This document shows, one piece after another, positions 10,390 through 28,386 of a stretch of DNA of 64,000 nt. Every line of letters starts with the position of its first letter. The first letter of the stretch is position 1. Origin of the DNA: an uncultured Saprospiraceae bacterium (GTDB lineage: Bacteria; Bacteroidota; Bacteroidia; Chitinophagales; Saprospiraceae); contig CALIAU010000001.1 of the NCBI GenBank assembly GCA_938045585.1, positions 248,001 through 312,000 on the forward strand, given 5' to 3'. The notes under the pieces were generated by a model. That model ran no database searches, was not told the origin of the DNA, and worked only from the letters and a program-made list of their open reading frames with translations. A program made the translations under genes and the position numbers.

Positions 10390-11874
10390 TTAAAAAATAA
10401 CAAACCACCAACTATCCACAACACCATTTGAAGATTCCAGAGATATGCAGTATCTACCAGGTTTGGAAGGAAGCTCAGCTGTTCGTAATGCATGCATACC
10501 TAATGGATACTTTTTTGCAGTTAGTTCTTTTTTATCCAAAGATTCTAGATCGTGAAGAATAAGTGTAAAAGTATCAGCATTACTGATATGAAAAGATATT
10601 TCATTTATAGACATTTCCGTACTTACAAAAGGCTTAACTATATAACCATCACTTGATTCCGATTGATCAAACTCAAAGTAACAAGCAAAGTTCTCGTCAA
10701 ACATATGAGGTCCAGCTATCATAGTGTGGGGTGGATCAGAAGGATTGTATGGATTATCTGAAGTATTGTCAAAATTAGCAGTGGTGTAAATCTTTGTGCC
10801 TTTTGGTAGTGTTAAAGCATCTTGAAAAACATACTTCTCTCTCCAGTGAAAATCCCAATCATCTATAGAAAGAATAGAGATTGAAGATCTATCTGGTAAG
10901 ACGGCGAATACTTCCCAGCTCCTACATAATAAATGTGCTAAGGGAGTTACAGATCGTAAACGTACATCGATTGGTAATTGAAATGTTGAGGATACTCTCT
11001 TTTGAATCCCGCTATCTATTAAAAAGCTATCTGCCAATAAAGCCGTATGAATCAAAGGTACATTTTGTAAGGTAGGTCCTTCATTATCTGAAAAAGTGAG
11101 ATGTATGCAGCTACTATCCTTTTCAATAGTTCCAAAAGGGCCGTAATGAATATGCAATAGCAACTCGGATTCTGCAGGTAAGAAAAGCTGTTCATCTTTT
11201 TTGAGTTGGATATTTTTAGTATGTGGCATCCAACTAAACCAATTGGGGAAGGAAGAGGTGAATCCCAAACTGCCGTAAGCAAAAAATCCATAGCGAGGGT
11301 CCCATTGATCCATCTTAGTAGAAAACCCTAGTGGTGCTATTGAAATGTTTGCCGATCGTACTATCTCCTTATTTCCAGGCTCAAAGTAAACATTATCAAT
11401 ATACTTGTCTTCCATCAGATTTGTTGGCATAGGGAATACTTGATATTGATCATAGTAGATTCCATAATGCGCAAAGGATTCTGACATACAAACAGTATGG
11501 TCGTAGTTGGTTGTATAAGCTTGCGTTTCAGTTTCGGCGGGGTTAGTAGAAATTCCCTTCACAAGTCCGCCCTCTATCCATTGCGCAATAAGTTTTCGCT
11601 CATCATTTGAAATAGATCGTTCATTTGCATAAGAGACATTATCATAATTTGCTTTAAATGGAGGCATTAATTTTGTGTCTATGACGAATCTTATCATGCT
11701 TGCATAACTTGATACTTGATCGTAATTAGTCAATGCCATAGGTCCTATATCTCCATCTTGATGACAATTCTGACAATGCTTCTTAATGATAGGAGCGATA
11801 TCTTTATAATAGCTTACTTGACTAGCAAGATGCGTAGGAATGGATAAAATAAAATATAACAGAAACCATCTCAT
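10390..11874 (-). CDS. Cytochrome c / copper type II monooxygenase-like protein
   Basis: I start this gene at 11874 (MRWFLLYFIL, a clean signal peptide), which overlaps the upstream stop as ATGA; a start at 11892 is also open but disrupts the signal. The 494-residue protein has one haem c motif CQNCH near residue 35, followed by a KLMPPF methionine typical of the haem lobe. The larger C-terminal part resembles ascorbate-dependent copper monooxygenases: LLLHIHYGPFG carries the His-x-His copper motif and LPKGTKIYTTANFDNTSDNP is a family block. Near the end, where relatives have EMMIGYF, this protein has ENFACYF, so the methionine ligand may be missing. It is translationally coupled to the redoxin gene, as in planctomycete fusions of the same domains. 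Confidence 0.7.
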   Translation of the reverse strand: MRWFLLYFILSIPTHLASQVSYYKDIAPIIKKHCQNCHQDGDIGPMALTNYDQVSSYASMIRFVIDTKLMPPFKANYDNVSYANERSISNDERKLIAQWIEGGLVKGISTNPAETETQAYTTNYDHTVCMSESFAHYGIYYDQYQVFPMPTNLMEDKYIDNVYFEPGNKEIVRSANISIAPLGFSTKMDQWDPRYGFFAYGSLGFTSSFPNWFSWMPHTKNIQLKKDEQLFLPAESELLLHIHYGPFGTIEKDSSCIHLTFSDNEGPTLQNVPLIHTALLADSFLIDSGIQKRVSSTFQLPIDVRLRSVTPLAHLLCRSWEVFAVLPDRSSISILSIDDWDFHWREKYVFQDALTLPKGTKIYTTANFDNTSDNPYNPSDPPHTMIAGPHMFDENFACYFEFDQSESSDGYIVKPFVSTEMSINEISFHISNADTFTLILHDLESLDKKELTAKKYPLGMHALRTAELPSKPGRYCISLESSNGVVDSWWFVIF

Positions 11875-12374
11875 CTCTTCGTAATGTAACATCCTATGGG
11901 CTCAGGCCAAGGTTTGGGTACGACTTGCTTAGCAAGCACTTTTTGAATGGCAATTTCTAAATCTTCGGTGACTTTTCCATGCCTCATCCTTCCTGGAGCG
12001 GCATAGGAATTATTGATCCGACCTTGATATGCTAGTTCGTCATGTTCGTCAACTAATACTACTTCAGGTGTAACAGTAGCATTATATCTGTCAGTGATGA
12101 CTCGATCATGGTCTATTTCAATAGTAAAAAGCGATAGGTCATATTTCTTTTTGAATAATGAAGCTCTTTTAATATTGCTTATTCTCTGTGGAAATACTGC
12201 AACGAATTTTACATCTTCAGAATATTGTGTAGATAAGCGTTTTAAGGTTTTTCCAAGGTAGTTACATACAGGGCACTCTTCAGCCATGAAGACGTATGCA
12301 GTATATTCACTTTGACTATGTAGCATGCTACCACCAGAATATAAAATCATGAAAATTAATAGGAGATTTTTCAT
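11871..12374 (-). CDS. Redoxin-family protein, partner of the monooxygenase-like protein
   Basis: The 167-residue secreted protein has a signal peptide (to about residue 20) and a thioredoxin fold with an active-site-like ECPVCNY motif (CPVC) near residue 34. The block TVTPEVVLVDEHDELAYQG, then GRINNSY and the tail VVPKPWPEPIGCYI match the redoxin domain found in large haem c-copper monooxygenase fusion proteins of Planctomycetes and Acidobacteria. Here the two parts are separate genes overlapping by ATGA. A role in thiol or copper handling for the partner is inferred. Confidence 0.75.
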   Translation of the reverse strand: MKNLLLIFMILYSGGSMLHSQSEYTAYVFMAEECPVCNYLGKTLKRLSTQYSEDVKFVAVFPQRISNIKRASLFKKKYDLSLFTIEIDHDRVITDRYNATVTPEVVLVDEHDELAYQGRINNSYAAPGRMRHGKVTEDLEIAIQKVLAKQVVPKPWPEPIGCYITKR

Positions 12375-12524: not shown

Positions 12525-13058
12525 ATGAAATTATTTTTTACATTATCATTTTTACTACTCCAAGGTCTTTGTATTGGACAAATCTACGGGACTATTGAAG
12601 GGCAAGTAAATTTTATTTCGAAAGCCCCTCTAGAAATTATCACTGCATCCTCTAATCAAATGCAAGGATTAATTGATCTTGATAAAAAGGTTTTTGCTTT
12701 TAAAATATATATCAAGTCGTTCAATGGATTTAATAGTCCTCTTCAACAAATTCACTTCTATGAGAATTATATGGAGGCGAATGACTTTCCTATTGCAACC
12801 TTTAAAGGTAAAATACTAGAACCTATTCAACACGGAAAGGGATTGTACAGAGCAAAAGGAATTCTTGAAATACATGGTCAGTCTGTTGAAAGAATTATAG
12901 GGGTGGAAATGATTATTGATAATAAACAAATAAAATATGCGGCTACATTTTTAATTCCGCTCGAAGATCATGATATCCAGTTGCCACGTATTGTTTCTCA
13001 AAAAATAGCCGAGTCTATAGAAGTATCTGTCGATGGGGAAATGCAGTTAAAAGAATGA
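12525..13058 (+). CDS. YceI-family lipocalin-like protein (first of two)
   Basis: The 177-residue protein has a signal peptide (to about residue 18, CIGQ) and the YceI fold: an early GQVNFISKAP strand, FAFKIYIKSFNGF, FYENYMEANDFPIATFKGK (matching the family block NxHFxSxxYPxATF) and LEIHGQS. YceI proteins bind isoprenoid-type lipids in the periplasm; several Bacteroidota copies sit in electron-transfer loci. It overlaps the start of the sensor kinase by 4 bases, suggesting co-transcription. A second YceI gene lies at 28387. Confidence 0.85.
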   Translation: MKLFFTLSFLLLQGLCIGQIYGTIEGQVNFISKAPLEIITASSNQMQGLIDLDKKVFAFKIYIKSFNGFNSPLQQIHFYENYMEANDFPIATFKGKILEPIQHGKGLYRAKGILEIHGQSVERIIGVEMIIDNKQIKYAATFLIPLEDHDIQLPRIVSQKIAESIEVSVDGEMQLKE

Positions 13059-15832
13059 GGAAAATAGTTATCATATATATTCTTTTGCCATTATCCCTAT
13101 GGGCTCAGATGCCCTCATGGCGTCCAGTTAATTTAGAACCAGAGATTGATATAAAAAATATGGAGGCAGATTCATTGGGGTTTTTGTGGTTGAATGATGC
13201 CCATAATCTGTATCGATTTGATGGTACAGAAGTTATTTCTAAGTTCAAACTTATAGAAGAACAGATTACTTCTTTTGTCTATCAAACGGATAATTTTTTA
13301 ATTGGAACTTCGCGGGGAAGAGTACTAAAAATAGATCCATATTCTAACAAGCAACTTATCTTGCAAGATACTATATTTGGAGAAGCCGTTACGGATATTT
13401 ACTATATCAATAGGACACAATTCGTTACAGTTTCTTATGGCTCAGGAATTCGAATAGTACATGATGACAAAGTAAGAAAGCTGGATATAGAAAATGGCTT
13501 AATAAGTAATGAGGTATATGATATCATTTATCATAATAAACTCTTATACATCGCTACGGATCAAGGAATTCAAGTATTAGATTTTCAAAGAGAAAATCCT
13601 TTTCTTCGGACTATTGGAATCAAGGAGGGCTTGTCTGACCTTGTTGTAACCCACCTAATATCTTTCGACAATAAATTATGGTACACAGACTATAATGGAA
13701 ATCTTGGGAGTATTGATGATGCTAACTTAGTACATAATTTTCCATTCACCAACAAGGCAAAGGTCAATGCACTTATTACACAGGATCAAGCTATCTACCT
13801 TGCTACAGATCGTGGTCTCACTAAATTTATAAACGGGCAGTTCCATTCTCAATACCCAATCAATGGATTTGAGAAAATCAGTGTTGCCCAGAAGGATGAA
13901 GAAGGAAATCTCTGGCTTGTCACTGCGGAAGGGGGCTTACAAAAGGGAAGTCTTTATTTTCAAAAACTAAATACAAATTTTAATGAAATAAGAGCATTTA
14001 CTAAAGTAAATGATAAGTTTATAATTGGGAACCAAGACGGTTTGTATGAATTCTGGCATGGTAAATCCGTGAAAATCAATGAAGAAAATATTACGCATCT
14101 GATCCTAGTGGATAAATACATTTTAGTGGGTACGTTTTCACAGGGGGTTATGATCTACGACACAGAGCTAAACCTTATAGACCAAGTAAAAGACTGGCAA
14201 GGTTTTAAAAACCAATCCGTATTGCATTTGTACTTTGATGGTGACCATTTGTATGTATCTTCATTGTCAGGTGTTATGGAATTCACATTTTCTAATGGCC
14301 GTTTAACTCCTAGCAAATCATTTAATGATTTTATAAGCCCAGGTTACATTTATTCTATCTCTCAAGCCGGAGGGAAGATGTATTTTGGCACGGATCGTAA
14401 AGGACTAATCGTTTGGGATAGAAAAACCAATAAAGTAAAAAACTATAAGAAATTTGATTCAAATGAAAAAATAGGATCGGTCTTCGCTATTTCTCAAGAC
14501 AAAGAAGGTAAAATATGGTTTACTTCAGATGAAAAAGGTCTTGGTTTTCTTGAAAACGACGCACCTATTGTTCTCAAGAACCAGATAAATACAGCTGACC
14601 AATATACTTCCTTGGTAGCTACAGGAAATGGTAATCTGCTTGCTGTAAGAGGAGCAACTGTAGACTTGATAGACCCAGCTAGTTTTCATATCATGTACTT
14701 CGATAAAGAACTGGACATTTTAGAAAAACCCTCTTACCTCAATGCGGTACATCAAGAAAATGAGGACACATATTTTGTACACGGTCATGATATTTATAAA
14801 TATACTGCCCATTCGTCTGTAAAGATTCATCCAGAGGTAATTATAGACGAAGTATTGGTTAATTTGAATCCAGTTTTGGAGGAGATCTGCTTTTCTCAGA
14901 ATGAAAACAATATCGAATTTAATTATAATGGTAGTTGGCTAACCGACCCTTCAAAACTCTCGTACCAATACATTTTGGAGGGACATGATACTGACTGGAG
15001 AACAACCAGGGATAAGTCTATTTCTTTTAGAAACTTAAATCCAGGGGAATATACATTTAGATTACGAGCATCCGAAAATGGTCAGTTTGATAACGAACCT
15101 GAAGACAGCTATGCTTTTGAAATTAAGAAACACTTTTATAATCTGTGGTGGGTAAGAAGTGTAGGGCTACTTATAGTAGGTTTTTTTGCTTGGCAAATGA
15201 TAAAAGCTAGGGAAGATCGGAAAAAAGAAAAGCTGGCACTTGAAAAGCTAAATATTGAGAATCAATTTATCAATTTAAAAAACCAACTCAATCCACACTT
15301 CCTGTTTAATGCATTCAATACATTGATTGGCATGATTGAAGAAAACAATGACCGTAGTGTAGCTTTTGTAGAACGGATGACTGACTTTTATCGTAATATG
15401 CTTGAATTTGGAAAATTTAATTTAATTACTCTCGATCAGGAGAAGAAAATGCTTAGTCAATATATCGATATTCTAAAGGCTAGATTTAATGGTCAGCTCG
15501 ACATACGATTGGATATTACAGATCAGCCTAATCAATATGAGTTGCCACCTATGACACTTCAGTTATTACTAGAAAATGCAGTCAAACATAATGTTGTTAG
15601 TACAAAAAATCCATTACGAATCAACATTTTGCAAAACAAGAGTAAAATTACGGTTCGGAATCAAAAGACCGCATTGGTGCAGAATGTTAAGAGCAGTAAA
15701 ATAGGATTACAGAATATAAAGCGCAGGTTTGAATTAATGAACATAAAGGCCCCTGAAATAAAGGATATGAATGACAGCTTTGAAGTCATAGTATATTTAA
15801 AAGAAAAGAAATATGAAAGCTCTAATTCTTGA
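13055..15832 (+). CDS. LytS-type sensor histidine kinase with beta-propeller sensor
   Basis: The 925-residue kinase has a signal peptide (to about residue 17, LWAQ), a periplasmic propeller of two-component-regulator repeats (about 25-590, with DKEGKIWFTSDEKGLGF-type blades), a Y_Y_Y domain (about 610-690), one membrane helix (LLIVGFFAW, about 700-715) and a His_kinase domain with the phospho-acceptor region NQLNPHFLFNAFNTL. The ATP-binding part ends with LLLENAVKHN and IGLQNIKRRF. This is the hybrid-like architecture common in Bacteroidetes but without fused receiver. Its partner LytTR regulator overlaps by 20 bases downstream. Confidence 0.93.
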   Translation: MRKIVIIYILLPLSLWAQMPSWRPVNLEPEIDIKNMEADSLGFLWLNDAHNLYRFDGTEVISKFKLIEEQITSFVYQTDNFLIGTSRGRVLKIDPYSNKQLILQDTIFGEAVTDIYYINRTQFVTVSYGSGIRIVHDDKVRKLDIENGLISNEVYDIIYHNKLLYIATDQGIQVLDFQRENPFLRTIGIKEGLSDLVVTHLISFDNKLWYTDYNGNLGSIDDANLVHNFPFTNKAKVNALITQDQAIYLATDRGLTKFINGQFHSQYPINGFEKISVAQKDEEGNLWLVTAEGGLQKGSLYFQKLNTNFNEIRAFTKVNDKFIIGNQDGLYEFWHGKSVKINEENITHLILVDKYILVGTFSQGVMIYDTELNLIDQVKDWQGFKNQSVLHLYFDGDHLYVSSLSGVMEFTFSNGRLTPSKSFNDFISPGYIYSISQAGGKMYFGTDRKGLIVWDRKTNKVKNYKKFDSNEKIGSVFAISQDKEGKIWFTSDEKGLGFLENDAPIVLKNQINTADQYTSLVATGNGNLLAVRGATVDLIDPASFHIMYFDKELDILEKPSYLNAVHQENEDTYFVHGHDIYKYTAHSSVKIHPEVIIDEVLVNLNPVLEEICFSQNENNIEFNYNGSWLTDPSKLSYQYILEGHDTDWRTTRDKSISFRNLNPGEYTFRLRASENGQFDNEPEDSYAFEIKKHFYNLWWVRSVGLLIVGFFAWQMIKAREDRKKEKLALEKLNIENQFINLKNQLNPHFLFNAFNTLIGMIEENNDRSVAFVERMTDFYRNMLEFGKFNLITLDQEKKMLSQYIDILKARFNGQLDIRLDITDQPNQYELPPMTLQLLLENAVKHNVVSTKNPLRINILQNKSKITVRNQKTALVQNVKSSKIGLQNIKRRFELMNIKAPEIKDMNDSFEVIVYLKEKKYESSNS

Positions 15833-16535
15833 AGACGAACAGTTAGCGTCCAATAGGCTGAAGAGGATGCTTAGTGAAGTAGCTTCAGATATTAAAGTAG
15901 TAGCAACTTTTGAAACTGTGGAAGATACTGTTGCATATTTAATGCACAATTTTGATATCGACATTCTATTCTTAGATATTCATGTAGCCGATGGTAATAG
16001 TTTTGAACTATTTAAAATTATAGAAGTAAAAAGCAACGTGATATTCACAACAGCTTATGACCAATATGCCATTGAAGCATTTAGGAAAAATGCTACTGAT
16101 TACCTTCTTAAACCACTAAAAAAAGAACAACTCATAGAAGCAATAGCAAAAGCTAAACCCATATCACAACAGCTATTGCATGATATTTCTCCAGGGTATA
16201 AAAAGAGGATTGTTATTCAATTCATGTCCAAATTACACAGTATCAAAACGGAAGAAATTGCTTATATATTTTCTAAGCATAAGGTGTCTTACTTTTATAC
16301 GTCTGATGGTCAACGCTATCCATCTGACTATAAGTTGCAAGATTTAGAAGATCTTCTGGATCCACAATATTTTTTTAGAGCCAACCGTCAATTTATTATT
16401 CACATTGATGCTGTGAGTAGCATAACAAAGCATCAAGCATCCAGAGTTAAAATTTTAATGGAGCCTCCTATAGCAGAAGATATAGTGATAAGCACTGATA
16501 AAACCCCTTTGTTTAAAAAATGGTTAGATAGATAG
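15813..16535 (+). CDS. LytTR response regulator
   Basis: The 240-residue regulator has a receiver domain (MKALILEDEQLA acidic pocket, phospho-acceptor Asp in LFLDIHVADG, TTAYDQYAIEAF, and Lys in YLLKPLKKEQL) and a C-terminal LytTR DNA-binding domain (about 140-240; YFFRANRQFIIHIDAV). It overlaps the kinase gene by 20 bases. The giant cupredoxin gene follows immediately, so it is a natural candidate target. Confidence 0.95.
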   Translation: MKALILEDEQLASNRLKRMLSEVASDIKVVATFETVEDTVAYLMHNFDIDILFLDIHVADGNSFELFKIIEVKSNVIFTTAYDQYAIEAFRKNATDYLLKPLKKEQLIEAIAKAKPISQQLLHDISPGYKKRIVIQFMSKLHSIKTEEIAYIFSKHKVSYFYTSDGQRYPSDYKLQDLEDLLDPQYFFRANRQFIIHIDAVSSITKHQASRVKILMEPPIAEDIVISTDKTPLFKKWLDR

Positions 16536-16649: not shown

Positions 16650-19600
16650 ATGAAAACAATTCTATCTACCTGCTTTTTGCTACTCTGTGCAATCTTTTTG
16701 TTCGCTCAATGTAACGCTTCGTTTACTTGGGATGATACTGATATAACAATTCAGTTCATGGATACCAGTACCTCAGATCCCGGTGATCCAATTGTGAGTT
16801 GGTTTTGGGACTTTGATGACAATGGTAATACATCAAATGAACAAAATCCTCTTTATACGTTTAGTGAAGCAGATAAATATGATGTTGTCCTTCAAATAAC
16901 AACTCAGAACGGTTGTACTTCAAGTATAGAAATTGAAATAGAAACATGTGTTCTGGCTGTTTCGCATACCATTGGCGTTTGTGATGCGAATGGTAATATC
17001 CCAGTAGAAATTACCATCAATGATCCTTGGGATGTGGCAGAAGAAGTCGATATAATTCTGGACGGTCAGTCTGTACCGGGAAGCCCATTCAATATCAGTG
17101 CAGGTAATCCCATAAATATTACAGTTGATGTACCTGGAGATGGTCTTTCTCATATTATACAATGTCAAAGTATAGAAATAGCAACTTGTGGAAAAAATAT
17201 TGAATTTGTAGTAGAGGATTGTAGTTCGGATTGTTTTTTATCTGGATTACAAGTAGCCTATCCAGCAGGCGTAACACATACAGTTGATGTGGGAGATGAT
17301 TTTTTTAGCCCAGTCTCCGTAGGAATAGTTTTAGGTGACATTGTAAATTTTGATTGGGTAGGGGATGGTCATAGTACAACCTCCGATGCTACTTCTGGAC
17401 CAGATGCTTGGAACAGCGGTGTAATAAGTATAGGCTCTAGTTTTGATGTGATTATTGATAATCCAGGAATACATCCATATTATTGCATTCCTCATGGTGG
17501 ACCTGGGGGTGTAGGCATGAGTGGTGAAATATTAGCAAACTGCCCTACAGGAAATAGCCTTGACTTAATTGTTTCTTTTAACACCACAATAGCTGATCCT
17601 GCGGGGTATAATGTGTATTATGATGGGGTAATTGTCTCGGGAAGTCCTTTTGCTTATTCAGGGACTGGTGGACAGTCACAGACGATTTCCATTGCAGGAG
17701 ATGGCTTGGTTCATCCTTTAATTGTTGAAGATGTAAATGATCCTAGCTGCACATTATCCTTGGATTATAACTCACCTGACTGTGATCAAGGTGGAGGGGA
17801 TCCTGTGTGTACGATTTCTGTTAGTCTTGGACAACCAAGTGGATGTGATGCTAATCAGGATGTAACAGTGGATGCCACTGTTAATGTTGCTAATGGAGGG
17901 AGTGGATTTAATCTTTCCATTGATGGTGGGGTACCCACTTTTTTTGCGTACAATGGGCCTTCTACTACAGTGGAAGTAAGCCTCCCTGGAGATGGTCAAA
18001 GTCATACTATCACAGTTACAGATCAGTTAGATTCAGCATGTTCTGCTAATACTCAAATCACAAGTCCTAACTGCACACTCCCTTGCAACATTAGCAATCT
18101 TGTTGTTGCAGAAGCTGGAGCGAGTGGAGGAATAACGCATACTGTAGAAGTAGAAGATTTTATATTCAATCCATCTGTAGTGAATATCACAACAGGCGAT
18201 GTAGTGGAATGGATATGGACAGGAGAGGTAGCCCATACTGCTACCTCAGATGCGACGTCTGGACCAGATAGTTGGGATAGTGGCTTACTCAATACAGGGG
18301 CTACATATACTAGCCCTATACTTAGCGAAGGAGAGCACCCATATTATTGTATTCCCCATGGTAATCCAGGAGGTGCTGGAATGGCAGGAACCATTTTCGT
18401 TTTACCACCATGTAATGTAAATGGTGAGGTAACAGTCAATGTTAATTTTGATGTGTCAAGTAATGGGACTAGTGGCTATGAAGTATTGGTAGATGGAGTA
18501 GTTGCAGGTACCTTTAGTTACGTAGGAGGTACAGCGCAAAGTGCCTCTGTAAATGTTCTGGGGGATGCGATGAGCCACACGATTCAAGTAAGAGATATTG
18601 ATGATAATGCGTGTACAGCAAGCGCAGATATAATAACTGGAGATTGTGATGGTGGAGGGACTCCTGAGTGCAATATTAGTGCTACCAGTACTGTGGCAGG
18701 AGCTTGTGATGCTAACAACCAGGTACCCGTTGATTTAGTAGTAACGGCGAGTGATCAAAGTTCAAATTTCTCTGTAGAAGTGGATGGGGTTTTTCAGGGA
18801 ACCTTTCCATATACTGGAAGCATAACAAATATAACTATCGATATAGATGGGGATGGTCAAGATCATACCATAGTACTCACAGATGGAGTAGATGCAACGT
18901 GTACAACAACAACCATTGTAAGCACTCCAAATTGCACGTTACCATGCAACATTAGCAATCTTGTTGTTGCAGAAGCTGGAGCGAGTGGAGGAATAACGCA
19001 TACTGTAGATGTAGAAGATTTTATATTCAATCCATCTGTAGTGAATATTACAACAGGCGATATAGTGGAATGGATATGGACAGGAGATGTCGCCCATACT
19101 GCTACCTCAGATGCGACGTCTGGACCAGATAGTTGGGATAGTGGCTTACTGAATACAGGGGCTACATACACTAGCCCCATACTTAGCGAAGGAGAACATC
19201 CCTACTATTGTATTCCTCACGGATCTCCTGGTGGAGTTGGAATGGCAGGAACCATTTTCGTTTTACCACCATGTAATGCAAATGGTGAGGTAACAGTCAA
19301 TGTTAATTTTGATGTGTCAAGTAGTGGGACTAGTGGCTATGAAGTATTGGTAGATGGAGCAGTGGCAGGTACCTTTAGTTACGTAGGAGGTACAGCGCAA
19401 AGTGCCTCTGTAAATGTTCTGGGGGATGCGATGAGCCACACGATTCAAGTAAGAGATATTGAAGATAATGCATGTACAGCAAGCGCAGATATAATAACTG
19501 GAGATTGTGATGGTGGAGGGACTCCTGAGTGCAATATTAGTGCTACCAGTACTGTGGCAGGAGCTTGTGATGCTAACAACCAAGTACCCGTTGATTTAGT

Positions 19601-22600
19601 AGTAACGGCGAGTGATCAAAGTGCAAATTTTTCTGTAGAAGTGGATGGGGTTTTTCAAGGATCCTTTTCATATACTGGAAGCATAACAAATATTACTATA
19701 CATGTAGATGGAAATGGTCAGGACCATACGATAGAAATTACAGATAATGTGGATGCTATGTGTACAACAACCACAGTAGTTTCTACGCAGGATTGTTTTT
19801 CAGACTGCGAAATCATTGACATAAATCTTGTTTTTGGAGAAAACACGACACACATTGTCAAAGTAGAAGATTTTGAATTCGTCCCAGACTCTATTAGTAT
19901 TGCTTTGGGAGATACTATTCTTTTTGACTGGACAGGAATTATTCCTCATACAGCGACATCTGATACAGTAAATGGGCCAGATAGCTTCGATAGTGGCTTG
20001 CAATCTCAAGGAGCTTCCTATGAACTCATCCTCACTACTGTAGGTGATCATCCATATTACTGTGTCCCGCATGGTGCCCCGGGAGGAATTGGTATGGCGG
20101 GTAATATTTTTGTTTCACCTGTTTGCGATGGGGAAGAGTCCTTAGCTACTTTATCTGTGCAATCGAGTGGGTCTAGTGGACAAGGATTTAATTTACTGCT
20201 TGATGGTAACATGTTACCTGAAAGTCCACTTGCTTATTCTCCTGCTGGAATATCTTCAAGTTCTATTACCATACCTGGCGATAGCATGAATCATGTTTTG
20301 GTAGTGTCAGATATAGAAAATCCTACTTGTGTAGATTCGATATCATTCTTAGCACCGTATTGTATTATTGATTCTTGTAATACAATGATATCTAATGTCT
20401 CTTTTGCCGACTGTGATGGAGCTACTACAATAATGACAGTTGATTTTAATTCACTTGATGGTCAAGAAGATCATAATCTTTTCTTCAATGGCAATCTTCT
20501 AAATGCTACACCAGTTACTACTGATGACCAAGGGCAAGGCACATTTTCAACTTCTATATCTGGATTAGGCGACGAAGCGGAGTTAATCATAAGTAATATA
20601 CTGTTTCCAACATGTGGAGATACTATACTCATAACTACACCTGATTGTAATGTCCCTTGTTTGATGTCAGATGTATCCATTGGGTCTAGTGCTGGAGTAC
20701 ATGTTGTAGAGGTCAGAGATTTTGACTTTTTCCCAAAAGATATAGAAATATTGATTGGTGATACAGTCCGGTTTTCATGGACTGGTGAAATTCCTCATAC
20801 AACCACTTCAGATGCTACCTCAGGAATGGATGTGTGGGATAGTGGACTATTTGGAGAAGGGCATGTTTATGATGTGATTATAAGTTCTGTTGGTGATCAT
20901 CCTTATTACTGTGTCCCACATGGCGGTCCTGGAGGAATTGGTATGGCAGGAAGTATTACCGCAATAGATACTTGCGTTGGAGACCAATGGTTAACTAATT
21001 ATACATTTTCAGTTTCTGCGGGAAGTCCATTGGGCTATAATATTTTTGTTGATGGGGAAGTATGGAATACCACGCCCATAGCATATAATGATCCTGTAGG
21101 TGTAAATACAGGAGTCATCAGTTTACCAGGAGATGAAATGAGCTACTTAGTGACTTTCCAAGATGTCGAAACGGATTTCTGCGCATTTACAACTACGGTC
21201 ACTACAGGAGCATGTGGAGCAGGATGTACAATTGAAAACTTGACAGCAAGTGTGGGTTCGAATGTTATCCATGAAATTGAAGTGCGAGATTTTGATTTTT
21301 TCCCACAAGAAGTAACCGTAAGATCTGGAGAGACGATTAGATTTATTTGGACAGGAGACATAGCACATACCTCAACATCAGACATTTTTAATGGTTCTGA
21401 CAGTTGGGATAGTGGGCTATTGTCAAATGGTGATACATTTGAAATCGTCCTTACTACACCTGGGGAGCATTTATATTATTGTATCCCACATGGTGGCCCT
21501 GGAGGTATCGGCCAGTCAGGTATTATAAATGTACTTCCTCAGTGCCAGGATGGAGACCAAGAAGTCCATATTAGTTTTGATGTTGATAATGGTAGTGATG
21601 AGGGATATAAATTATTTGTAGATGGTACATTAATAGGTGGACTTAATCCGTATAATGATCCGGACGGAGGGAATGACATTTCTTTACTTTTACCTGCGGA
21701 TGGACTCGAGCATATCGTAACTATACAAGATGATGCAAATCCTATATGTGCAGCCAGTACATTTTATCAATCTGAAGATTGTGCTACAGATTGTGAGATT
21801 GCTGGTTTGACATACGAATTGGTGAAGAACAAGCATGTTGTAGAAGTAAGAGACTTTGACTTTATGCCATTAGACGTGACGGTCGAAGTGGGCGACACAA
21901 TCTTATTTGACTGGATTGGAGAAATAGCGCATACAGTTACTTCTGATGTAACAACAGGAGCATCAGCATTTAATTCTGGGCTATTACAAGAAGGAGATCA
22001 ATGGATTTTGATTTTAGACGAAATAGGAGAACACCCGTATTATTGTATTCCCCATGGTGGTCCTGGAGGAATTGGCATGGCAGGTAATATAACTGTTACG
22101 GATGCTTGTGATGATGGAGAAGTCACTTCTCAATTTACGTTTACTACCAGTAGACTTTCTGGTACTTACGATGTTTTTGTAAATGGTGGCAATGTCATCT
22201 CAGGTGCAAGTTACAGCGGTATTCCTGAGAATAGCTTTAGTATCGAACTTCCTGCAGAAGATACTGACTTATTAATTGAAATTGAAGATCAATTAGATAG
22301 TAACTGTGCTTCATCGCTTCCTATAACAGCTATCAATTGTAACGACCCATGTTTTGAGGTAGATGCAGAATTTTCTTATGATATTGATTTTGCTACGATG
22401 GAAGTAATTTTCTCGGATATGAGTAGTGGGAATATCCTTTCTTGGTCTTGGGACTTTGGAGATGGAGGCACTAGTAGTTTGATGAATCCTATTCATAGCT
22501 ATACAGATCCCATAGTATACGAAGTGTGTCTTACTGTAATAGACGATCAAGATTGTACATCAACATTTTGTGACAAGGTCAGATTTTCAGATGAAGTTTG

Positions 22601-23354
22601 TGTTGCAGGATTTACATACCTACAAAACGATCTTGACTTTATATTTGTAAATACTTCAGATTACGAAGATCCAGAAGCAGAGATATTGTGGACTTTTGGA
22701 GATGGTGATATATCAAACGTGATAGATAGCATTGCCCATACGTTTGACTTAGGTGTCTATACAGTATGTATCCAGATAAGTTCTGATAGTTGTGTCACTA
22801 ACTATTGTGAAGAATTGGATCTAAGTGATCCTTGTTTAGCTATTTCTCCAGATTTCGTTGCGAATAACGATGGGGCTAATCTTACAGTAAATTTTGAAGA
22901 CATGACTACGGGTATGCCAGACAGTTGGTTGTGGGGGTTTGGAGATGGGAACACAAGTATAGAACAAAACCCGTCTCATTCTTTTGCCTCTTTGGGTGAA
23001 TATAATGTTTGTCTCTTTGTGCAAGAAGAAGAGAATTTGTGTAGTAAAACTATGTGTAGGAAAATATCCGTAGGTACTACAGGGGTGTATGAAATAGAAC
23101 AGTTCAAGCCTTTAAATCTATACCCTAATCCTTCATCCAATGGAAGCATTATCAGTATAGAAGGATTTGATTTAAATGATATTGGTGTGTCTGCTGAGAT
23201 CCGAATAACAGATACGAATGGACGGCTAATTCAAATGAGCAAGGAGACTTTAACAGCAACCCAAAGAGTCAACATCGACAAATGCAAGGGAGTCTATTTC
23301 ATTCGTATTCAAACTGATGATACTATATATATAGCAATGGGAATAAGGCAGTAA
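16650..23354 (+). CDS. Giant T9SS-secreted protein with seven cupredoxin modules and PKD domains
   Basis: I choose the ATG at 16650 (MKTILSTCFLLLCAIFLFAQ, a signal peptide) over an upstream ATG at 16554 that only adds an odd extension. The 2,234-residue protein has one PKD domain (about 20-95), seven plastocyanin-like modules whose YYC lies near residues 277, 563, 850, 1133, 1417, 1606 and 1794, three further PKD domains (about 1900-2140) and a T9SS type A sorting domain (LYPNPSSNGS to the end). Each cupredoxin module carries the type 1 copper ligands: His in a (G/P)HT or AHT segment, then YYC, PHG and GM. In the sixth the Met is Gln. Ig-like Cys-rich segments lie between modules. It likely sits on the cell surface, binding copper or carrying electrons; this is inferred. 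Confidence 0.9.
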   Translation: MKTILSTCFLLLCAIFLFAQCNASFTWDDTDITIQFMDTSTSDPGDPIVSWFWDFDDNGNTSNEQNPLYTFSEADKYDVVLQITTQNGCTSSIEIEIETCVLAVSHTIGVCDANGNIPVEITINDPWDVAEEVDIILDGQSVPGSPFNISAGNPINITVDVPGDGLSHIIQCQSIEIATCGKNIEFVVEDCSSDCFLSGLQVAYPAGVTHTVDVGDDFFSPVSVGIVLGDIVNFDWVGDGHSTTSDATSGPDAWNSGVISIGSSFDVIIDNPGIHPYYCIPHGGPGGVGMSGEILANCPTGNSLDLIVSFNTTIADPAGYNVYYDGVIVSGSPFAYSGTGGQSQTISIAGDGLVHPLIVEDVNDPSCTLSLDYNSPDCDQGGGDPVCTISVSLGQPSGCDANQDVTVDATVNVANGGSGFNLSIDGGVPTFFAYNGPSTTVEVSLPGDGQSHTITVTDQLDSACSANTQITSPNCTLPCNISNLVVAEAGASGGITHTVEVEDFIFNPSVVNITTGDVVEWIWTGEVAHTATSDATSGPDSWDSGLLNTGATYTSPILSEGEHPYYCIPHGNPGGAGMAGTIFVLPPCNVNGEVTVNVNFDVSSNGTSGYEVLVDGVVAGTFSYVGGTAQSASVNVLGDAMSHTIQVRDIDDNACTASADIITGDCDGGGTPECNISATSTVAGACDANNQVPVDLVVTASDQSSNFSVEVDGVFQGTFPYTGSITNITIDIDGDGQDHTIVLTDGVDATCTTTTIVSTPNCTLPCNISNLVVAEAGASGGITHTVDVEDFIFNPSVVNITTGDIVEWIWTGDVAHTATSDATSGPDSWDSGLLNTGATYTSPILSEGEHPYYCIPHGSPGGVGMAGTIFVLPPCNANGEVTVNVNFDVSSSGTSGYEVLVDGAVAGTFSYVGGTAQSASVNVLGDAMSHTIQVRDIEDNACTASADIITGDCDGGGTPECNISATSTVAGACDANNQVPVDLVVTASDQSANFSVEVDGVFQGSFSYTGSITNITIHVDGNGQDHTIEITDNVDAMCTTTTVVSTQDCFSDCEIIDINLVFGENTTHIVKVEDFEFVPDSISIALGDTILFDWTGIIPHTATSDTVNGPDSFDSGLQSQGASYELILTTVGDHPYYCVPHGAPGGIGMAGNIFVSPVCDGEESLATLSVQSSGSSGQGFNLLLDGNMLPESPLAYSPAGISSSSITIPGDSMNHVLVVSDIENPTCVDSISFLAPYCIIDSCNTMISNVSFADCDGATTIMTVDFNSLDGQEDHNLFFNGNLLNATPVTTDDQGQGTFSTSISGLGDEAELIISNILFPTCGDTILITTPDCNVPCLMSDVSIGSSAGVHVVEVRDFDFFPKDIEILIGDTVRFSWTGEIPHTTTSDATSGMDVWDSGLFGEGHVYDVIISSVGDHPYYCVPHGGPGGIGMAGSITAIDTCVGDQWLTNYTFSVSAGSPLGYNIFVDGEVWNTTPIAYNDPVGVNTGVISLPGDEMSYLVTFQDVETDFCAFTTTVTTGACGAGCTIENLTASVGSNVIHEIEVRDFDFFPQEVTVRSGETIRFIWTGDIAHTSTSDIFNGSDSWDSGLLSNGDTFEIVLTTPGEHLYYCIPHGGPGGIGQSGIINVLPQCQDGDQEVHISFDVDNGSDEGYKLFVDGTLIGGLNPYNDPDGGNDISLLLPADGLEHIVTIQDDANPICAASTFYQSEDCATDCEIAGLTYELVKNKHVVEVRDFDFMPLDVTVEVGDTILFDWIGEIAHTVTSDVTTGASAFNSGLLQEGDQWILILDEIGEHPYYCIPHGGPGGIGMAGNITVTDACDDGEVTSQFTFTTSRLSGTYDVFVNGGNVISGASYSGIPENSFSIELPAEDTDLLIEIEDQLDSNCASSLPITAINCNDPCFEVDAEFSYDIDFATMEVIFSDMSSGNILSWSWDFGDGGTSSLMNPIHSYTDPIVYEVCLTVIDDQDCTSTFCDKVRFSDEVCVAGFTYLQNDLDFIFVNTSDYEDPEAEILWTFGDGDISNVIDSIAHTFDLGVYTVCIQISSDSCVTNYCEELDLSDPCLAISPDFVANNDGANLTVNFEDMTTGMPDSWLWGFGDGNTSIEQNPSHSFASLGEYNVCLFVQEEENLCSKTMCRKISVGTTGVYEIEQFKPLNLYPNPSSNGSIISIEGFDLNDIGVSAEIRITDTNGRLIQMSKETLTATQRVNIDKCKGVYFIRIQTDDTIYIAMGIRQ
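18085..19806 (+). repeat. Intragenic 861-bp tandem duplication
   Basis: Bases 18085-18945 and 18946-19806, inside the cupredoxin gene, are near-identical over long stretches. Examples are the run from GCAACATTAGCAATCTTG onwards and the CTCCTGAGTGCAATATTAG region at 18661 and 19522. Each unit encodes one cupredoxin plus two Ig-like segments (287 residues). The high nucleotide identity marks it as the most recent of the module duplications. Confidence 0.85.
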
Positions 23355-23600: not shown

Positions 23601-24338
23601 ATGCTAGATTATTTGTCTTTGGAAAGTAGCACAGAATTTCCAGCATTCTATACCATATTTTACACAGTCTTGCTGTCATTTGTATTGTCATCAATGATCT
23701 CTTACACCCATAGTAAGACAAGTAGATGTGTAATCACACCAGTTGAATTTTTGCAATCATTGATACTTGTATCAATTGTTTCCGCCACGGTTATGCAAGC
23801 TATAGGAGATAGCTTGGCTAGAGGATTAGGCATGCTAGGTGCATTAGCTATTATAAGATATAGAGTCACTCTCAAAACACCACGAAATATGGTGTTTACC
23901 TTCGCTGCCTTGGCAGCTGGGATTGCTTGTGGCGTATACGCCTATGTAATCGCGCTGACTGGTACAATTGGGTTTTGTGTTATTGCTTTTGTGCTTAGAT
24001 ACAGTCCTCTTTGCAAAACGAATGCATTACTTGGGTTACTAAAATTTAACTTTCCTACAGAAAGAAGTATGAAAGCAATTGAGGATATAATCGCAGGTCA
24101 TTCTGATAACTATAGAAAAGTAAGATTTCAGATTGGAAAACAACAAAGAAATAATATTCAAGAGAATCCGTCGAAAACAACAGATCCTTCCTCTCTAATG
24201 TCTGGGGCAATTTCTTTTGTATACGAAGTCAATTTTAAAGATCTAGATGCATGCAAGATGCTTCATAAAGCACTTGATGGCCAAGAAGGAATCTCTCAAT
24301 TAAAATTGAGTTTTGAAAACATAAATGAAAATGTCTAG
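23601..24338 (+). CDS. DUF4956 membrane protein
   Basis: The 245-residue protein has four predicted membrane helices (about 17-37, 50-70, 97-120, 123-145) and the DUF4956 signature GDSLARGLGMLGALAIIRYR followed by KTPRNMVFTFAALAAGIACG. A soluble C-terminal domain of about 90 residues follows. The family function is unknown; members usually sit beside VTC-type polyphosphate polymerases or CotH. Here it overlaps by 14 bases with a HlyD-like adaptor gene, followed by a TolC-like gene, so it may be the inner-membrane part of an export system. Confidence 0.85.
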   Translation: MLDYLSLESSTEFPAFYTIFYTVLLSFVLSSMISYTHSKTSRCVITPVEFLQSLILVSIVSATVMQAIGDSLARGLGMLGALAIIRYRVTLKTPRNMVFTFAALAAGIACGVYAYVIALTGTIGFCVIAFVLRYSPLCKTNALLGLLKFNFPTERSMKAIEDIIAGHSDNYRKVRFQIGKQQRNNIQENPSKTTDPSSLMSGAISFVYEVNFKDLDACKMLHKALDGQEGISQLKLSFENINENV

Positions 24339-25386
24339 TATCAAAAAAATAAATTTACTCGTATTGGTATTCTTTCTTGTGCTTTCATACTTAGTGTCCT
24401 TTAATTGCAACCACTACTCAGATGTCATGGTTTTCTATGGGTTTGCTAATAATCAAGAGGTAAACATCAACTTGGAAAATTCAGCTCAGGTTACAAGAAT
24501 TCATGTTACACCTGGTCAGGTGGTATCTGAAGGAGATGTTCTATTAGAGGTTGCAAGATCCAGCATTGCTGTTGCGCAAAGTGATATTCATCATGACATT
24601 TCTAAGCTAAAGTCTCAGTATCATATTTGGGAATCAGAACTAAAGAATTCTTTACGTGCTTTAAAAGCACAGAAAACAGAGAAAAGAAATGCGCTACAAA
24701 GTGCTATCAGTAAGCTTGAATCAGAAATGAAAATCAATGCAAAACTAATTAAGGGTATTGAAAGTATTGAACAGGTCAAAGATCATAACGGAACGAACCC
24801 AAGGCAAATACAACTTGAAGGCCTTAATGAAGAACTGCGCTTATCCATGCTTACTTATGACATTGATATAAGGAAAATAGAAAAAGAACTCTACAATCCT
24901 GAAAATCCTATCAAGATCCAAATTGCAAAACTCGGAAGCAATCTGGAGTTTATGAATGAAGAAGTGAAGAGTCTAAACATAACTGCTCCAAATGATGGAA
25001 TAGTGGGTAATATAATATGCAAAGTAGGTGAAAATATTCCTGCATTTACACCCTATATCACTATATATGAACAAGTACCTACCCATGTAAGAGCTTATGT
25101 ATTAGAAAATCTTATTCCAAACATTGATATTGGAGACTCTATCAAAGTTCAGTCCGTGAGTCATTCTGAGTTATCTATTTCGGGAGTAGTAACAGGTATG
25201 GGTTCCAGAATTATTGAAATTCCTGCCCGACTAAGAAAGAACCCTAATTATTCCACGTATGGACGAGAAATAGAAATACGCATTCCTGCAACGAATCCCT
25301 TTTTACAAAATGAAAAGGTAATTCTAAAGTCTATTAACAACCTTCACAGCACTCATGTTTCACTGGTAAATTTAAATAAAAGATGA
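24325..25386 (+). CDS. HlyD-type periplasmic adaptor protein
   Basis: The 353-residue protein has one N-terminal membrane helix (about 8-26), a biotinyl-lipoyl-like half-motif VTRIHVTPGQVVSEGDVLLE (about 50-70), a long coiled coil (about 85-200) and the second half-motif ITAPNDGIVGNIICKVGE (about 225-245), then a beta-barrel domain. This is the layout of membrane fusion proteins linking an inner-membrane pump to a TolC channel. An internal ATG at 24331 is an alternative start. No ABC or RND pump is encoded nearby. Confidence 0.85.
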   Translation: MKMSSIKKINLLVLVFFLVLSYLVSFNCNHYSDVMVFYGFANNQEVNINLENSAQVTRIHVTPGQVVSEGDVLLEVARSSIAVAQSDIHHDISKLKSQYHIWESELKNSLRALKAQKTEKRNALQSAISKLESEMKINAKLIKGIESIEQVKDHNGTNPRQIQLEGLNEELRLSMLTYDIDIRKIEKELYNPENPIKIQIAKLGSNLEFMNEEVKSLNITAPNDGIVGNIICKVGENIPAFTPYITIYEQVPTHVRAYVLENLIPNIDIGDSIKVQSVSHSELSISGVVTGMGSRIIEIPARLRKNPNYSTYGREIEIRIPATNPFLQNEKVILKSINNLHSTHVSLVNLNKR

Positions 25387-26639
25387 AACTGCAATCTGTT
25401 CTAGTTCAAATACTCTGTGTGCTATTGCTAGAATTAAACATGCTAGACGCACAATCTAATTCAGATATAAGCAAAGTGATTAATACTGCCTTTAAGGATA
25501 ATAGAGTGACTTATATTATGGACAAAAACCATCAATTGTCCACTCTCGATTACTCTGTTCCATTGGTTGATAAAATTGAAGTACGGTCAGAAACTAATGA
25601 TTTTGATCTGAGGAAACAAGATGTAACTGTAAGGCTCAGTCCTAATGCTGGCTCAAATCGTAAGGCATATCGATTATACCATGAATCTTTGAAATTCATG
25701 ACGGAAATGGAATACAATACAGAAATTATGCAAGCTTTATTTGAAAAATACAATCTTATAAAGGATTATATTTTTTCTAATGAACATCTCAAATTAGAAA
25801 AGAAAAAAAATGTGATCGCTCTTGACAAACTTAAGCTGTTGAAAAGAATGGTATCGCTTTCCACATTTGATATAGTTGATCTAATAGAAGCCGAGGATGA
25901 GCTGTACGAACTCCAACGCGTAATACAGGCTACAGAGAATACCTTGGAGGAAGTAAGTATTCAGTTAAGGCAGCTCTTACCAGATCAGCACCTTAAAATT
26001 GAGTTGGAACATATCATCTCTGTGAATAGAATTAAAGAATTAATTCATCAAAATGAATTGACAAGCAAGTTAATTCACCCAGAGATAGAAGTATTATCAT
26101 CAAAACACTATAATGTAATGATGGAGCATGACTGGGAGGCATCTAAAAATAGTTTGTCGTTAGGCTTTCTTCAAGCATCGTTTGGTTATGTGCCAGATAA
26201 ATCATTTGGTAGTAATTTTTCCATTGGATTTGGATTTGATTTTCCAATCAAAGGATCTTCTGGGTTAAAATTAAATGAAATTAAGGTCAACATACTAAAC
26301 GCGCAGAGCCAATATCTAGATAGAGTAGAAAAAATAAAGACAATAGAGCAAAATAGTAAATCACAATTATTGGGCCTTATCAGTATATATGAGTTACTGT
26401 CCTCTCAAATAGAACAGGGAAATGGAAGGCATGCCTTAAGGGAATACAGTAAGCAAGGAATTGCCTCGCCCATGGCTCTTCTAAAACTCAAAGAATTGAC
26501 AATAAACAATGAGGCATTACTAATAGAGATACAATCAGATATCCTAAGTGTATATTTAGAATATATTTACTATACAGGAGTAATTGGAAAAAAACCGTAT
26601 CAAAATTTCTTAGATGAAAAACTTACAGTGTTGGAATAG
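25383..26639 (+). CDS. TolC-like outer membrane efflux protein
   Basis: The 418-residue protein has a signal peptide (to about residue 24, LDAQ) and long helical segments in two similar halves, with RLSPNAGSNRKAYRLYHESL and YSKQGIASPMALLKLKELT at equivalent places, as in outer-membrane efflux channels. It overlaps the adaptor gene by 4 bases (ATGA). It is divergent from textbook TolC, so the call rests on layout and neighbourhood. Confidence 0.75.
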   Translation: MKLQSVLVQILCVLLLELNMLDAQSNSDISKVINTAFKDNRVTYIMDKNHQLSTLDYSVPLVDKIEVRSETNDFDLRKQDVTVRLSPNAGSNRKAYRLYHESLKFMTEMEYNTEIMQALFEKYNLIKDYIFSNEHLKLEKKKNVIALDKLKLLKRMVSLSTFDIVDLIEAEDELYELQRVIQATENTLEEVSIQLRQLLPDQHLKIELEHIISVNRIKELIHQNELTSKLIHPEIEVLSSKHYNVMMEHDWEASKNSLSLGFLQASFGYVPDKSFGSNFSIGFGFDFPIKGSSGLKLNEIKVNILNAQSQYLDRVEKIKTIEQNSKSQLLGLISIYELLSSQIEQGNGRHALREYSKQGIASPMALLKLKELTINNEALLIEIQSDILSVYLEYIYYTGVIGKKPYQNFLDEKLTVLE

Positions 26640-26824: not shown

Positions 26825-27601
26825 GTGAGAGCAACTACAAATCAAATAATTGTCTTCCTCAGTATTATGACATGGATATGTATCCATCAGTCATGTACAC
26901 ATGACCCTATAATTTTAGATGACATGGAGCCTGACCCGTTGGATACAATGACGAATCCTATAGACACCATGGTAATTGATACCATGGGAGTAGATACGAC
27001 TGACATAGGGAACCCTTGCGATTCAAATGTTATCTACTTTCAATATGATATACTTCCCATTTTACAGGGAAGTTGTGCTTTCTCAGGATGTCATGATGCT
27101 GCATCTGCTAGCGATGGGGTTATTCTAGATAATTATGACAATGTAATAAATACAGCAGATGTGAAACCCTATGATCTTAGTGACTCAGAGCTTTATAAAG
27201 TTATAACTGAAAATAACCCAGATGATGTTATGCCACCAGAGGGTAAGATGGATAATGAAAAAATAAGCCTAATAGCTCAATGGATATTGCAAGGAGCCCT
27301 TGACTTAGAGTGTGACCAAGCTGCTGTAGATTGCGATACAGATAATGTAAGTTTCAGTGGATTTGTTTCTGAAGTTTTTAATACTTCTTGTAATGGTTGC
27401 CATAGTACTTCTAACGCATTTGGAGGAGTAATACTTGATACATACATTGGTGTAAAAACGGTGGTGGATAATAACCGTTTATATGGAGCTATTAATTGGG
27501 AGCAAGACTTTGAGCGAATGCCTCAAGGGCAAGACCAGTTAGATTCTTGCACTATTGCTAAAGTAAAAATATGGATAGATGAAGGGGCTCAAAACAATTA
27601 G
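26825..27601 (+). CDS. Haem c-binding lipoprotein
   Basis: The 258-residue protein starts with GTG at 26825, because no in-frame ATG gives a full signal peptide; the lipobox is HQSC. After an Asp/Pro/Thr-rich linker come two cytochrome-like lobes. The first has CAFSGCH (CX4CH spacing) near residue 84 and the second CNGCH near residue 191. Both are followed by a GVILD and, later, a MPP or RMPQ methionine region, as in small haem lobes of planctomycete-type cytochromes. It overlaps the next haem gene by 23 bases. A role in electron transfer to or from the cupredoxin protein is inferred. Confidence 0.75.
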   Translation: MRATTNQIIVFLSIMTWICIHQSCTHDPIILDDMEPDPLDTMTNPIDTMVIDTMGVDTTDIGNPCDSNVIYFQYDILPILQGSCAFSGCHDAASASDGVILDNYDNVINTADVKPYDLSDSELYKVITENNPDDVMPPEGKMDNEKISLIAQWILQGALDLECDQAAVDCDTDNVSFSGFVSEVFNTSCNGCHSTSNAFGGVILDTYIGVKTVVDNNRLYGAINWEQDFERMPQGQDQLDSCTIAKVKIWIDEGAQNN

Positions 27602-27947
27602 CGTAATCATCGTTCTATCAATAATTTCTTATGGATGCTACTATGATAAGGAGGAAGAAATATATCCAATGATAGATTGTGTTACTTCTGATATGAGCTA
27701 CTCATCTGATATTTTGCCAATACTGATTTCAGATTGCTATGGCTGTCATAAGGCAGACGCCAATTTTGGGAATGTTACTCTCGAAGGGTATGAAGAAGTC
27801 TTGAAGTATGTGAATAATGGTTCTTTGTTAGGATCAATAAATCATGAAGGAGGATATTCTCCAATGCCAAAAAATTCTGCAAAGTTAGTAGACTGCGAAC
27901 TTGAAAAAATTGCAGCATGGATCAATGATGGGGCACCTAATAACTAA
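27579..27947 (+). CDS. Small mono-haem c lipoprotein
   Basis: The 122-residue protein has a lipobox (SYGC, Cys20) and a single CYGCH haem motif near residue 54, then GNVTLEGYEEV and YSPMPKNSAK with the likely axial Met, and a WINDGAPNN tail matching the second lobe of the upstream protein (WIDEGAQNN). It looks like a one-lobe paralogue. It overlaps the preceding gene by 23 bases, so co-expression is likely. Confidence 0.8.
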   Translation: MKGLKTISVIIVLSIISYGCYYDKEEEIYPMIDCVTSDMSYSSDILPILISDCYGCHKADANFGNVTLEGYEEVLKYVNNGSLLGSINHEGGYSPMPKNSAKLVDCELEKIAAWINDGAPNN

Positions 27948-27961
27948 TAAAATTATGTAAA

Positions 27962-28357
27962 ATGAAAAAATTACTAATTATACTTTTCTTATTCATTGTT
28001 AGTGGTGCAATTGTAGGAATTTATCTTTTTAATAAACCTGTAGAAAGTATAGAACGAATGCAATCAGACTATACGATAAATGCTTCAGAGTTATTAGTTG
28101 AATTTGAAGATGACGAATCAAAAGCAAACTCAAAATATCTTGATAAGGTAATTGAGGTGAATGGTAAGGTGGATAAAGTGGAGAATAATGAAGATAAAAC
28201 CACCATCTACTTAAACGCGGGTAACCCTATGTCAAACATTATTTTTCAATTAGAAACACCGAGTTCTGCAATACAGACTGGTGAGGTGCTCACATTTAAA
28301 GGGATATGCACTGGTTACCTAATGGATGTCGTCTTGGTAAGAGGTGTCCAACTTTAA
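27962..28357 (+). CDS. OB-fold (tRNA_anti-like) membrane-anchored protein
   Basis: The 131-residue product has an N-terminal membrane helix or uncleaved signal (about 4-24) and an OB-fold-like domain with YLDKVIEVNGKVDKVE and VLTFKGICTGYLMDVVLVRG, as in the tRNA_anti-like family. Such proteins are common neighbours of YceI and haem lipoproteins in Bacteroidota (from memory). Function unknown. It lies 14 bases after the haem lipoprotein gene. Confidence 0.7.
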   Translation: MKKLLIILFLFIVSGAIVGIYLFNKPVESIERMQSDYTINASELLVEFEDDESKANSKYLDKVIEVNGKVDKVENNEDKTTIYLNAGNPMSNIIFQLETPSSAIQTGEVLTFKGICTGYLMDVVLVRGVQL

Positions 28358-28386
28358 GATGAATTTGTAAAATAGAATTATATAAC

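Follow-up and report, generated by a model that had tools for sequence, protein, structure and literature searches.

A type IX-secreted chain of plastocyanin-family modules in Saprospiraceae, a candidate electron relay at the cell surface

Introduction

What use does a bacterium have for a secreted protein that carries seven plastocyanin-like domains in a row? The question is raised by a 64,000-nucleotide (nt) stretch of contig CALIAU010000001.1 (GenBank assembly GCA_938045585.1, positions 248,001 to 312,000, forward strand) from an uncultured Saprospiraceae bacterium. We call the whole stretch the window and give feature coordinates in window positions. One open reading frame (ORF) on its + strand (16650-23354) encodes 2234 amino acids (aa) with no internal stops. 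An earlier note, made from the letters of this DNA, described the product as a chain of seven type 1 copper modules sorted by the type IX secretion system (T9SS), and proposed a surface copper wire or store controlled by the LytS/LytTR pair directly upstream. Single cupredoxins are textbook electron carriers. We consider it most likely, with somewhat better than even confidence, that this array works as a flexible electron relay at the surface, built of separate type 1 copper beads. That reading builds on the architecture of the chain, its membership in the plastocyanin family, the conservation of its ligands, its T9SS tail and the recurrent gene cluster around it.

Results and Discussion

Seven plastocyanin-family modules in one chain

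Pfam family PF00127 matches the protein in seven stretches (E 5.3e-47, 158.7 bits against a cut-off of 21.2), as does the NCBIfam plastocyanin model TIGR02656 (195.5 bits summed along the chain, cut-off 87.85). When the organism's own genome was scanned with PF00127, modules 2-7 each exceeded the cut-off singly and module 1 was unreported. On profile evidence, all seven modules belong to the PF00127 family. There are seven copies of the motif YYC-x-PH-x5..9-G[M/Q], which start at aa 277, 565, 852, 1136, 1419, 1609 and 1797; six end in GM and the one in module 6 (aa 1609) in GQ. Their spacings of 288, 287, 284, 283, 190 and 188 residues agree with the earlier note, which had put them at about 285 and then about 190, and a repeat search found the 90-nt Cys-His-Met segment as seven DNA copies spaced 864, 861, 852, 849, 570 and 564 nt apart. 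The ligands that the note had picked out from its His, YYC, PHG and GM/GQ patterns stand in the order His, Cys, His, Met/Gln in 7 of 7 modules. The ligand loop is C-x2-H-x7-M/Q in all seven; an x7 loop is also seen in L068, a cupredoxin outside the array family.

Ligand conservation was counted over those modules that could be aligned, taken from 28 ORFs in 27 regions. These modules were gathered with a profile built from the window's own modules, and strongly decayed copies could escape it. His50 is present in 136 of 136 modules, Cys88 and His91 in 133 of 133, and Met99 in 130 of 133, with Gln in the remaining 3. The loop that carries the outer His is near-invariant (Gly92 and Gly98 in 133/133, Gly96 in 131/133, Pro94 in 127/133), which would fit a docking patch for a partner. 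A Cys also lies near both module ends (133/133 and 99/103). We reject a chance or vestigial motif on the profile matches together with the invariant ligands.

A related alternative concerns the protein as a whole, which could be an adhesive or matrix string whose copper sites are structural or vestigial. Surface adhesins of Bacteroidota typically combine PKD and Ig-like domains with a T9SS tail, and Foldseek ranks Ig-string proteins high, for example the grappling hook protein GhpA of Aureispira. Vestigial sites would decay somewhere, whereas Cys and His are invariant in 133 modules and the module alignment has a mean column identity of 0.63. We regard an adhesive string as improbable.

The AlphaFold2 model covers modules 4-7 and used an 11-row alignment. 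With a pLDDT of 80.3 and a pTM of 0.32, the predicted domains are fairly confident and their relative placement is undefined. VIA-align superposed the modelled module 5 on plastocyanin 1bxu at Z 12.7 (root-mean-square deviation 1.8 Å, 83 residues aligned), and plastocyanin, purple cupredoxin and amicyanin matched modules 4, 5 and 6 at Z 11-13. Modules 4, 5 and 6 are predicted to adopt the cupredoxin fold.

Comparison with known cupredoxins

The window protein shares with plastocyanin the fold of module 5 and the His-Cys-His-Met order, but it has seven copies per chain, a T9SS tail and the Cys near both module ends. The plastocyanin loop is C-x2-H-x4-M, and the x7 loop of the array does not match this short form, which sets its modules apart from plastocyanin proper. 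The archaeal halocyanin model TIGR03102 also matches seven stretches of the protein. Halocyanins are extracytoplasmic electron carriers and are not known to have a T9SS tail. Among the best structural matches, the Nitrosopumilus purple cupredoxin 5fc9 (Z 12.5, 1.6 Å) is a single domain with no spaced array, and the multicopper oxidase 9cck (Z 12.2, 36.1 Å over several domains) is an oxidase with a C-terminal cupredoxin, again without a spaced array.

The axial Gln is confined to penultimate modules (window module 6, L045 module 8 and L109 module 7), all of which retain the other three ligands and form one clade (support 100/88). An axial Gln lowers the potential of a copper site, and its fixed position would fit potential tuning. 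T9SS type A proteins are anchored at their C-terminal end, and in this one lineage the penultimate module may perhaps be a lower-potential site near the anchored end.

Secretion, spacers and a proposed mechanism

The ORF lister began the frame at GTG 16554. ATG 16650, the start used in the earlier note, is the better one and opens on a signal-peptide-like sequence, judged by eye. PF18911 (PKD) matches four stretches of the protein. The T9SS type A tail scores 36.3 bits with TIGR04183 (cut-off 23), which upholds the sorting claimed in the earlier note, and the genome encodes the T9SS translocon marker SprA_N (PF14349, 403.7 bits).

Spacers were located with a profile from the window's own Ig-like spacers, in the ORFs of the window, L036-L056, L109, L164 and L167-L169, many of which are cut by contig ends. 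Some of these rows are not independent: L037 and L053 are one strain, L164 and L167 one genome, and L040 and L048 one bin, and L036 is close to L037. The 137 modules in the 28 ORFs leave 109 gaps, of which 30 hold one Ig-like domain, 73 hold two and 6 hold three; gaps without an Ig-like spacer number 0 of 109. In the window protein the first four gaps have two Ig-like domains and the last two have one.

As we picture it, the protein would be a string secreted by the T9SS to the cell surface, in which Ig-like spacers keep the many type 1 copper sites apart like beads. One electron at a time would pass through the exposed His of a bead as its copper cycles between Cu(I) and Cu(II). Flexible and dense in such sites, the string would relay or buffer electrons between the cluster's lipoprotein cytochromes and something extracellular; copper occupancy, surface location and electron transfer, along with its partners and its direction, are what we infer here. 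OmcS-type outer-membrane cytochrome nanowires share the proposed surface electron transfer. Unlike them, the array would use copper rather than heme, with spacer-separated sites on a covalent chain.

Relatives and distribution

A profile scan of contigs, through which phyla beyond Bacteroidota were sampled, gave 43 loci. Twenty-one of these (L036-L056, named records) have a whole or cut array, of which 2 to 9 modules are visible; their record labels are Phaeodactylibacter, Saprospiraceae, Lewinellaceae, Chitinophagales, Sphingobacteriales, or just Bacteroidetes or Bacteroidia. The gene is present in Phaeodactylibacter xiamenensis (Saprospirales; L037 and L053). The remaining 22 loci (L057-L078) encode cupredoxins of other kinds, whose ORFs have one or two modules each.

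Of 298 genomes sampled from the order, the profile finds matches at 1e-15 in 17, and 9 genomes, counting the window's own, have at least three tandem modules. Tandem arrays in the order run from three to ten modules, the longest having ten in 3183 aa (L168), and a genome of the same genus has eight (L109). A T9SS type A tail was found in 10 of the 10 relatives scanned. Profile matches occur in 82 of the 395 genomes of a class sample, and the window's ORF is the only multi-module one among the matches listed; PF00127 occurs in 103 of the 296 genomes of a phylum sample, and only the window's ORF has several per ORF among the matches listed. A clean separation of arrays from other cupredoxins is weakened by two-module proteins of different make in the same family of bacteria (G019, 1213 aa; G005, 687 aa; G020, 221 aa). 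In G019:C5:103553-104110 and G005:C250:42672-43196 the two cupredoxin modules are directly adjacent. A further protein, in G650, is 1307 aa long and contains two modules that resemble those of the arrays.

No description of a tandem-cupredoxin T9SS protein appeared among the papers listed by full-text searches, in which subscription papers are mostly uncovered, and passages of PMC12016528 and PMC11213822 describe none either. The cupredoxin domain is known; the array, its spacer grammar, its secretion and its cluster are apparently undescribed in the literature searched.

Probable growth of the array by duplication

Module 3 of the window protein is a recent duplicate of module 2 (92% over 300 nt). 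The duplicate units 2 and 3 differ by a dN of 0.044 and a dS of 0.22, values that we count in favor of a relay. A tree was built from 73 modules, drawn from ten arrays, with few columns and an unsettled bootstrap. Module 1 forms a single clade with one row from each of the ten arrays (support 100/99). A second-module clade of 20 rows (100/99) holds window modules 2-3, L109 modules 2-4, L045 modules 2-5, L168 modules 2-6 and L169 modules 2-3, together with module 2 of L036, L042, L049 and L051; L044 modules 2-3 fall outside it. This grouping suggests that array length varies mainly by multiplication of the second unit, while module 1 and the copper sites are held. In L037/L053, L040/L048 and L164/L167 the contigs stop within the array; its near-identical repeats may be what breaks the assemblies. 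Draft genomes therefore give lower bounds on module number.

The neighbouring genes

Array loci show a recurrent gene order, whole or cut, of YceI, kinase, LytTR, array, two-heme cytochrome, one-heme cytochrome, OB-type protein, YceI and DUF5777 (window features in Table 1). The recurrence of cytochrome c genes, YceI proteins and the DUF5777 barrel beside the array counts in favor of a relay. After the lipobox Cys, 22 of 25 one-heme cytochrome rows carry YYD and mostly acidic residues, as read by eye. An acidic start of this kind is similar to the surface-export signal of Bacteroidota lipoproteins, and by this resemblance the one-heme cytochromes would sit outside the cell.

Table 1. Features of the array gene and its surroundings, in window positions
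Feature	Positions	Strand	Basis
Heme c motif and PHM-like fold protein, accessory cluster member	10390..11892	-	Low-confidence model, motif
Thioredoxin-like protein, pairs with the heme c/PHM-like protein	11871..12374	-	Profile match, neighbourhood comparison
YceI-like protein	12525..13058	+	PF04264
Propeller/Y_Y_Y sensor histidine kinase, LytS-type His_kinase	13055..15832	+	PF06580
LytTR response regulator	15813..16535	+	Best matches BtsR and LytR, both below cut-off
Multi-cupredoxin T9SS protein gene, 2234 aa	16650..23354, stop codon included	+	ORF, Pfam, NCBIfam
Signal peptide, aa 1-19	16650..16706	+	Read by eye in sequence
N-terminal PKD domain, aa about 22-100	16713..16949	+	PF18911; ColH match aa 32-91; limits by eye
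First Ig-like spacer, aa 101-190	16950..17219	+	Spacer profile
Cupredoxin module 1	17223..17552	+	PF00127, ligands
Two Ig-like spacers, modules 1-2	17556..18083	+	Spacer profile
Cupredoxin module 2	18087..18416	+	PF00127, ligands
Two Ig-like spacers, modules 2-3	18420..18944	+	Spacer profile
Cupredoxin module 3	18948..19277	+	PF00127; repeat search, 92% to module 2 over 300 nt
Two Ig-like spacers, modules 3-4	19281..19799	+	Spacer profile
Cupredoxin module 4	19800..20129	+	PF00127, structure match
Two Ig-like spacers, modules 4-5	20133..20648	+	Spacer profile
Cupredoxin module 5	20649..20978	+	PF00127, structure match
One Ig-like spacer, modules 5-6	20982..21218	+	Spacer profile
Cupredoxin module 6, axial Gln replacing Met	21219..21548	+	PF00127, motif, structure match
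One Ig-like spacer, modules 6-7	21552..21782	+	Spacer profile
Cupredoxin module 7	21783..22112	+	PF00127, ligands
Last Ig-like domain	22116..22349	+	Spacer profile
Three C-terminal PKD domains	22350..23099, approximate	+	PF18911, best stretch aa 1915-1972; limits by eye
T9SS type A sorting domain, aa 2157-2227	23118..23330	+	TIGR04183 36.3 bits, PF18962 34.1 bits
DUF4956, HlyD/CusB-type adaptor without heavy-metal-binding domain, TolC-type protein; accessory	23601..26639	+	Pfam
Lipoprotein-like cytochrome, two heme motifs (CX4CH, CXXCH)	26825..27601	+	PF07635, motifs
Small lipoprotein-like cytochrome, one CXXCH, acidic stretch past lipobox Cys	27579..27947	+	Motifs
tRNA_anti-like (OB-type) protein	27962..28357	+	PF12869
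Second YceI-like protein	28387..28944	+	PF04264
DUF5777 membrane beta barrel	28922..29821	+	PF19089, 321 bits

The kinase, LytTR and array genes are co-directional, and 114 bases separate the end of the LytTR gene from the array gene. Homologs of the kinase and of LytTR each occur in 12 of the 26 array regions outside the window, many of which are cut. Other genes lie between the pair and the array in L054, and the kinase or LytTR gene faces away in L050 and L052. L153 and L170 have the cluster genes, the pair among them, with no array, and L158 has part of them. The co-directional pair upstream and its recurrence beside arrays agree in part with the LytS/LytTR control proposed in the earlier note. 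Because in L153 and L170 the pair stands before cytochrome/DUF5777 genes that lack an array, it more likely controls the whole cluster than the array alone.

The accessory pair of a heme c/PHM-fold protein and a thioredoxin-like protein raises another possibility, that the array is dedicated to giving electrons to, or taking them from, a secreted enzyme such as this heme c/PHM-fold protein. The pair is found in the window and in 6 of the 26 other array regions, and the best 28 Foldseek matches to the PHM-like model are all PHM structures. That model has a pLDDT of only 59, and there is little backing for PHM at the sequence level: no PHM came up when PDB sequences were searched directly, and Pfam Cu2_monoox_C matches 2 of 6 PHM-like members (best E 0.022). 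In a comparison by eye with the copper ligands of PHM, all 6 of 6 members look to have lost the HH pair of CuH; a CuM His and the Met look replaced in the window, while L038 and L164 keep both. The gene pair was unseen in the other array regions, many of them cut, and L157 has it with no array in view. An enzyme partner is in our judgment the least probable of the functions considered.

Further observations concern the cluster itself. The cluster of YceI, lipoprotein cytochrome c, OB-type and DUF5777 genes recurs across the taxonomic order (window 26825-29821, L123-L170), and the same genome has a second DUF5777 cluster with cytochromes and no array in view (G000:C2:79421-80158, L165). Of 26 rows in the two-heme cytochrome group, 25 carry a CX4CH heme motif of the CAFSGCH type. 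A polyphosphate kinase gene adjoins the DUF4956-HlyD-TolC genes at L109:2810-4918 and L167:4830-6917. At window 4606-6078 (- strand) lies a PorV/BamG-like outer-membrane protein, below both curated cut-offs. A full-text literature search for DUF5777 returned no paper.

Points that weigh against an electron relay

Several findings weigh against a relay. Because at least one Ig-like domain stands in 109 of 109 gaps, hopping along a single chain is unlikely, unless the chain is folded back or chains collide; the spacers make along-chain conduction doubtful and speak against the continuous copper wire of the earlier note. Chain-to-chain contact could itself be hindered, since the protein is strongly acidic (311 acidic and 31 basic residues, net -280, pI 4.05). 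The core cluster is also present without the array in many genomes. Within the order, 86 of 99 genomes have DUF5777, against 9 of 298 for the array, which therefore has the look of an addition to a widespread cluster.

The downstream genes give a further argument. A CusB/CzcB-type adaptor lies 3' of the array in 8 of the 17 loci with a readable 3' flank, directly after it in L036, L037, L039, L042, L050, L051 and L168, and after a CusA/CzcA-type pump (643 bits, below the cut-off of 701) in L040. No such adaptor was seen 3' of the array in L038, L041, L044, L049, L055, L109, L164, L169 or the window. The array-less DUF5777 regions have it in 0 of 14 cases (Fisher p 0.003; counting the near-identical L036 and L037 once gives 0.007; kinship is ignored). 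Pfam finds a heavy-metal-binding domain in 3 of 3 relatives' adaptors scanned, and downstream of the window's array lie a TolC-type gene and a different adaptor, of HlyD/CusB type (PF16576, 32.7 bits, cut-off 30). Read from their domains, these adaptors point to copper handling.

They favor the main rival, namely that the array is an extracellular copper sponge or supply, capturing copper for protection or for cuproprotein loading; the PHM-fold protein beside the array in several loci also favors it. Against this, Pfam shows no heavy-metal-binding domain in the window adaptor, the whole 98%-complete genome has no match to that domain, and its four CusA/CzcA matches are all below the cut-off (best 251 bits). 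RND-type pumps also occur near the array-less L158 and L163. Seven sites per 2234 aa would make a poor store, with 18 Met and 16 His in the 1464 residues outside the modules. PF00127 matches in the genome are confined to the array protein, with one weak Cupredoxin_1 match elsewhere, below the cut-off. We consider a sponge unlikely, and a surface relay of separate copper beads still describes the array best.

Significance

A secreted chain with up to ten intact cupredoxins, regular spacers and a link to cytochromes hints at a surface structure for handling electrons, of a kind that, in our impression, is little known in Bacteroidota. A more specific and quite tentative possibility is a copper-based extracellular conduit, a T9SS-anchored polymer with up to ten type 1 sites that would exchange electrons with surface lipoprotein cytochromes and the DUF5777 barrel. 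If this were true, copper beads would here do what multiheme cytochromes do in other bacteria, in a surface system for respiration or redox sensing. The array may also offer a first functional handle on DUF5777, a family found in most genomes of the order.

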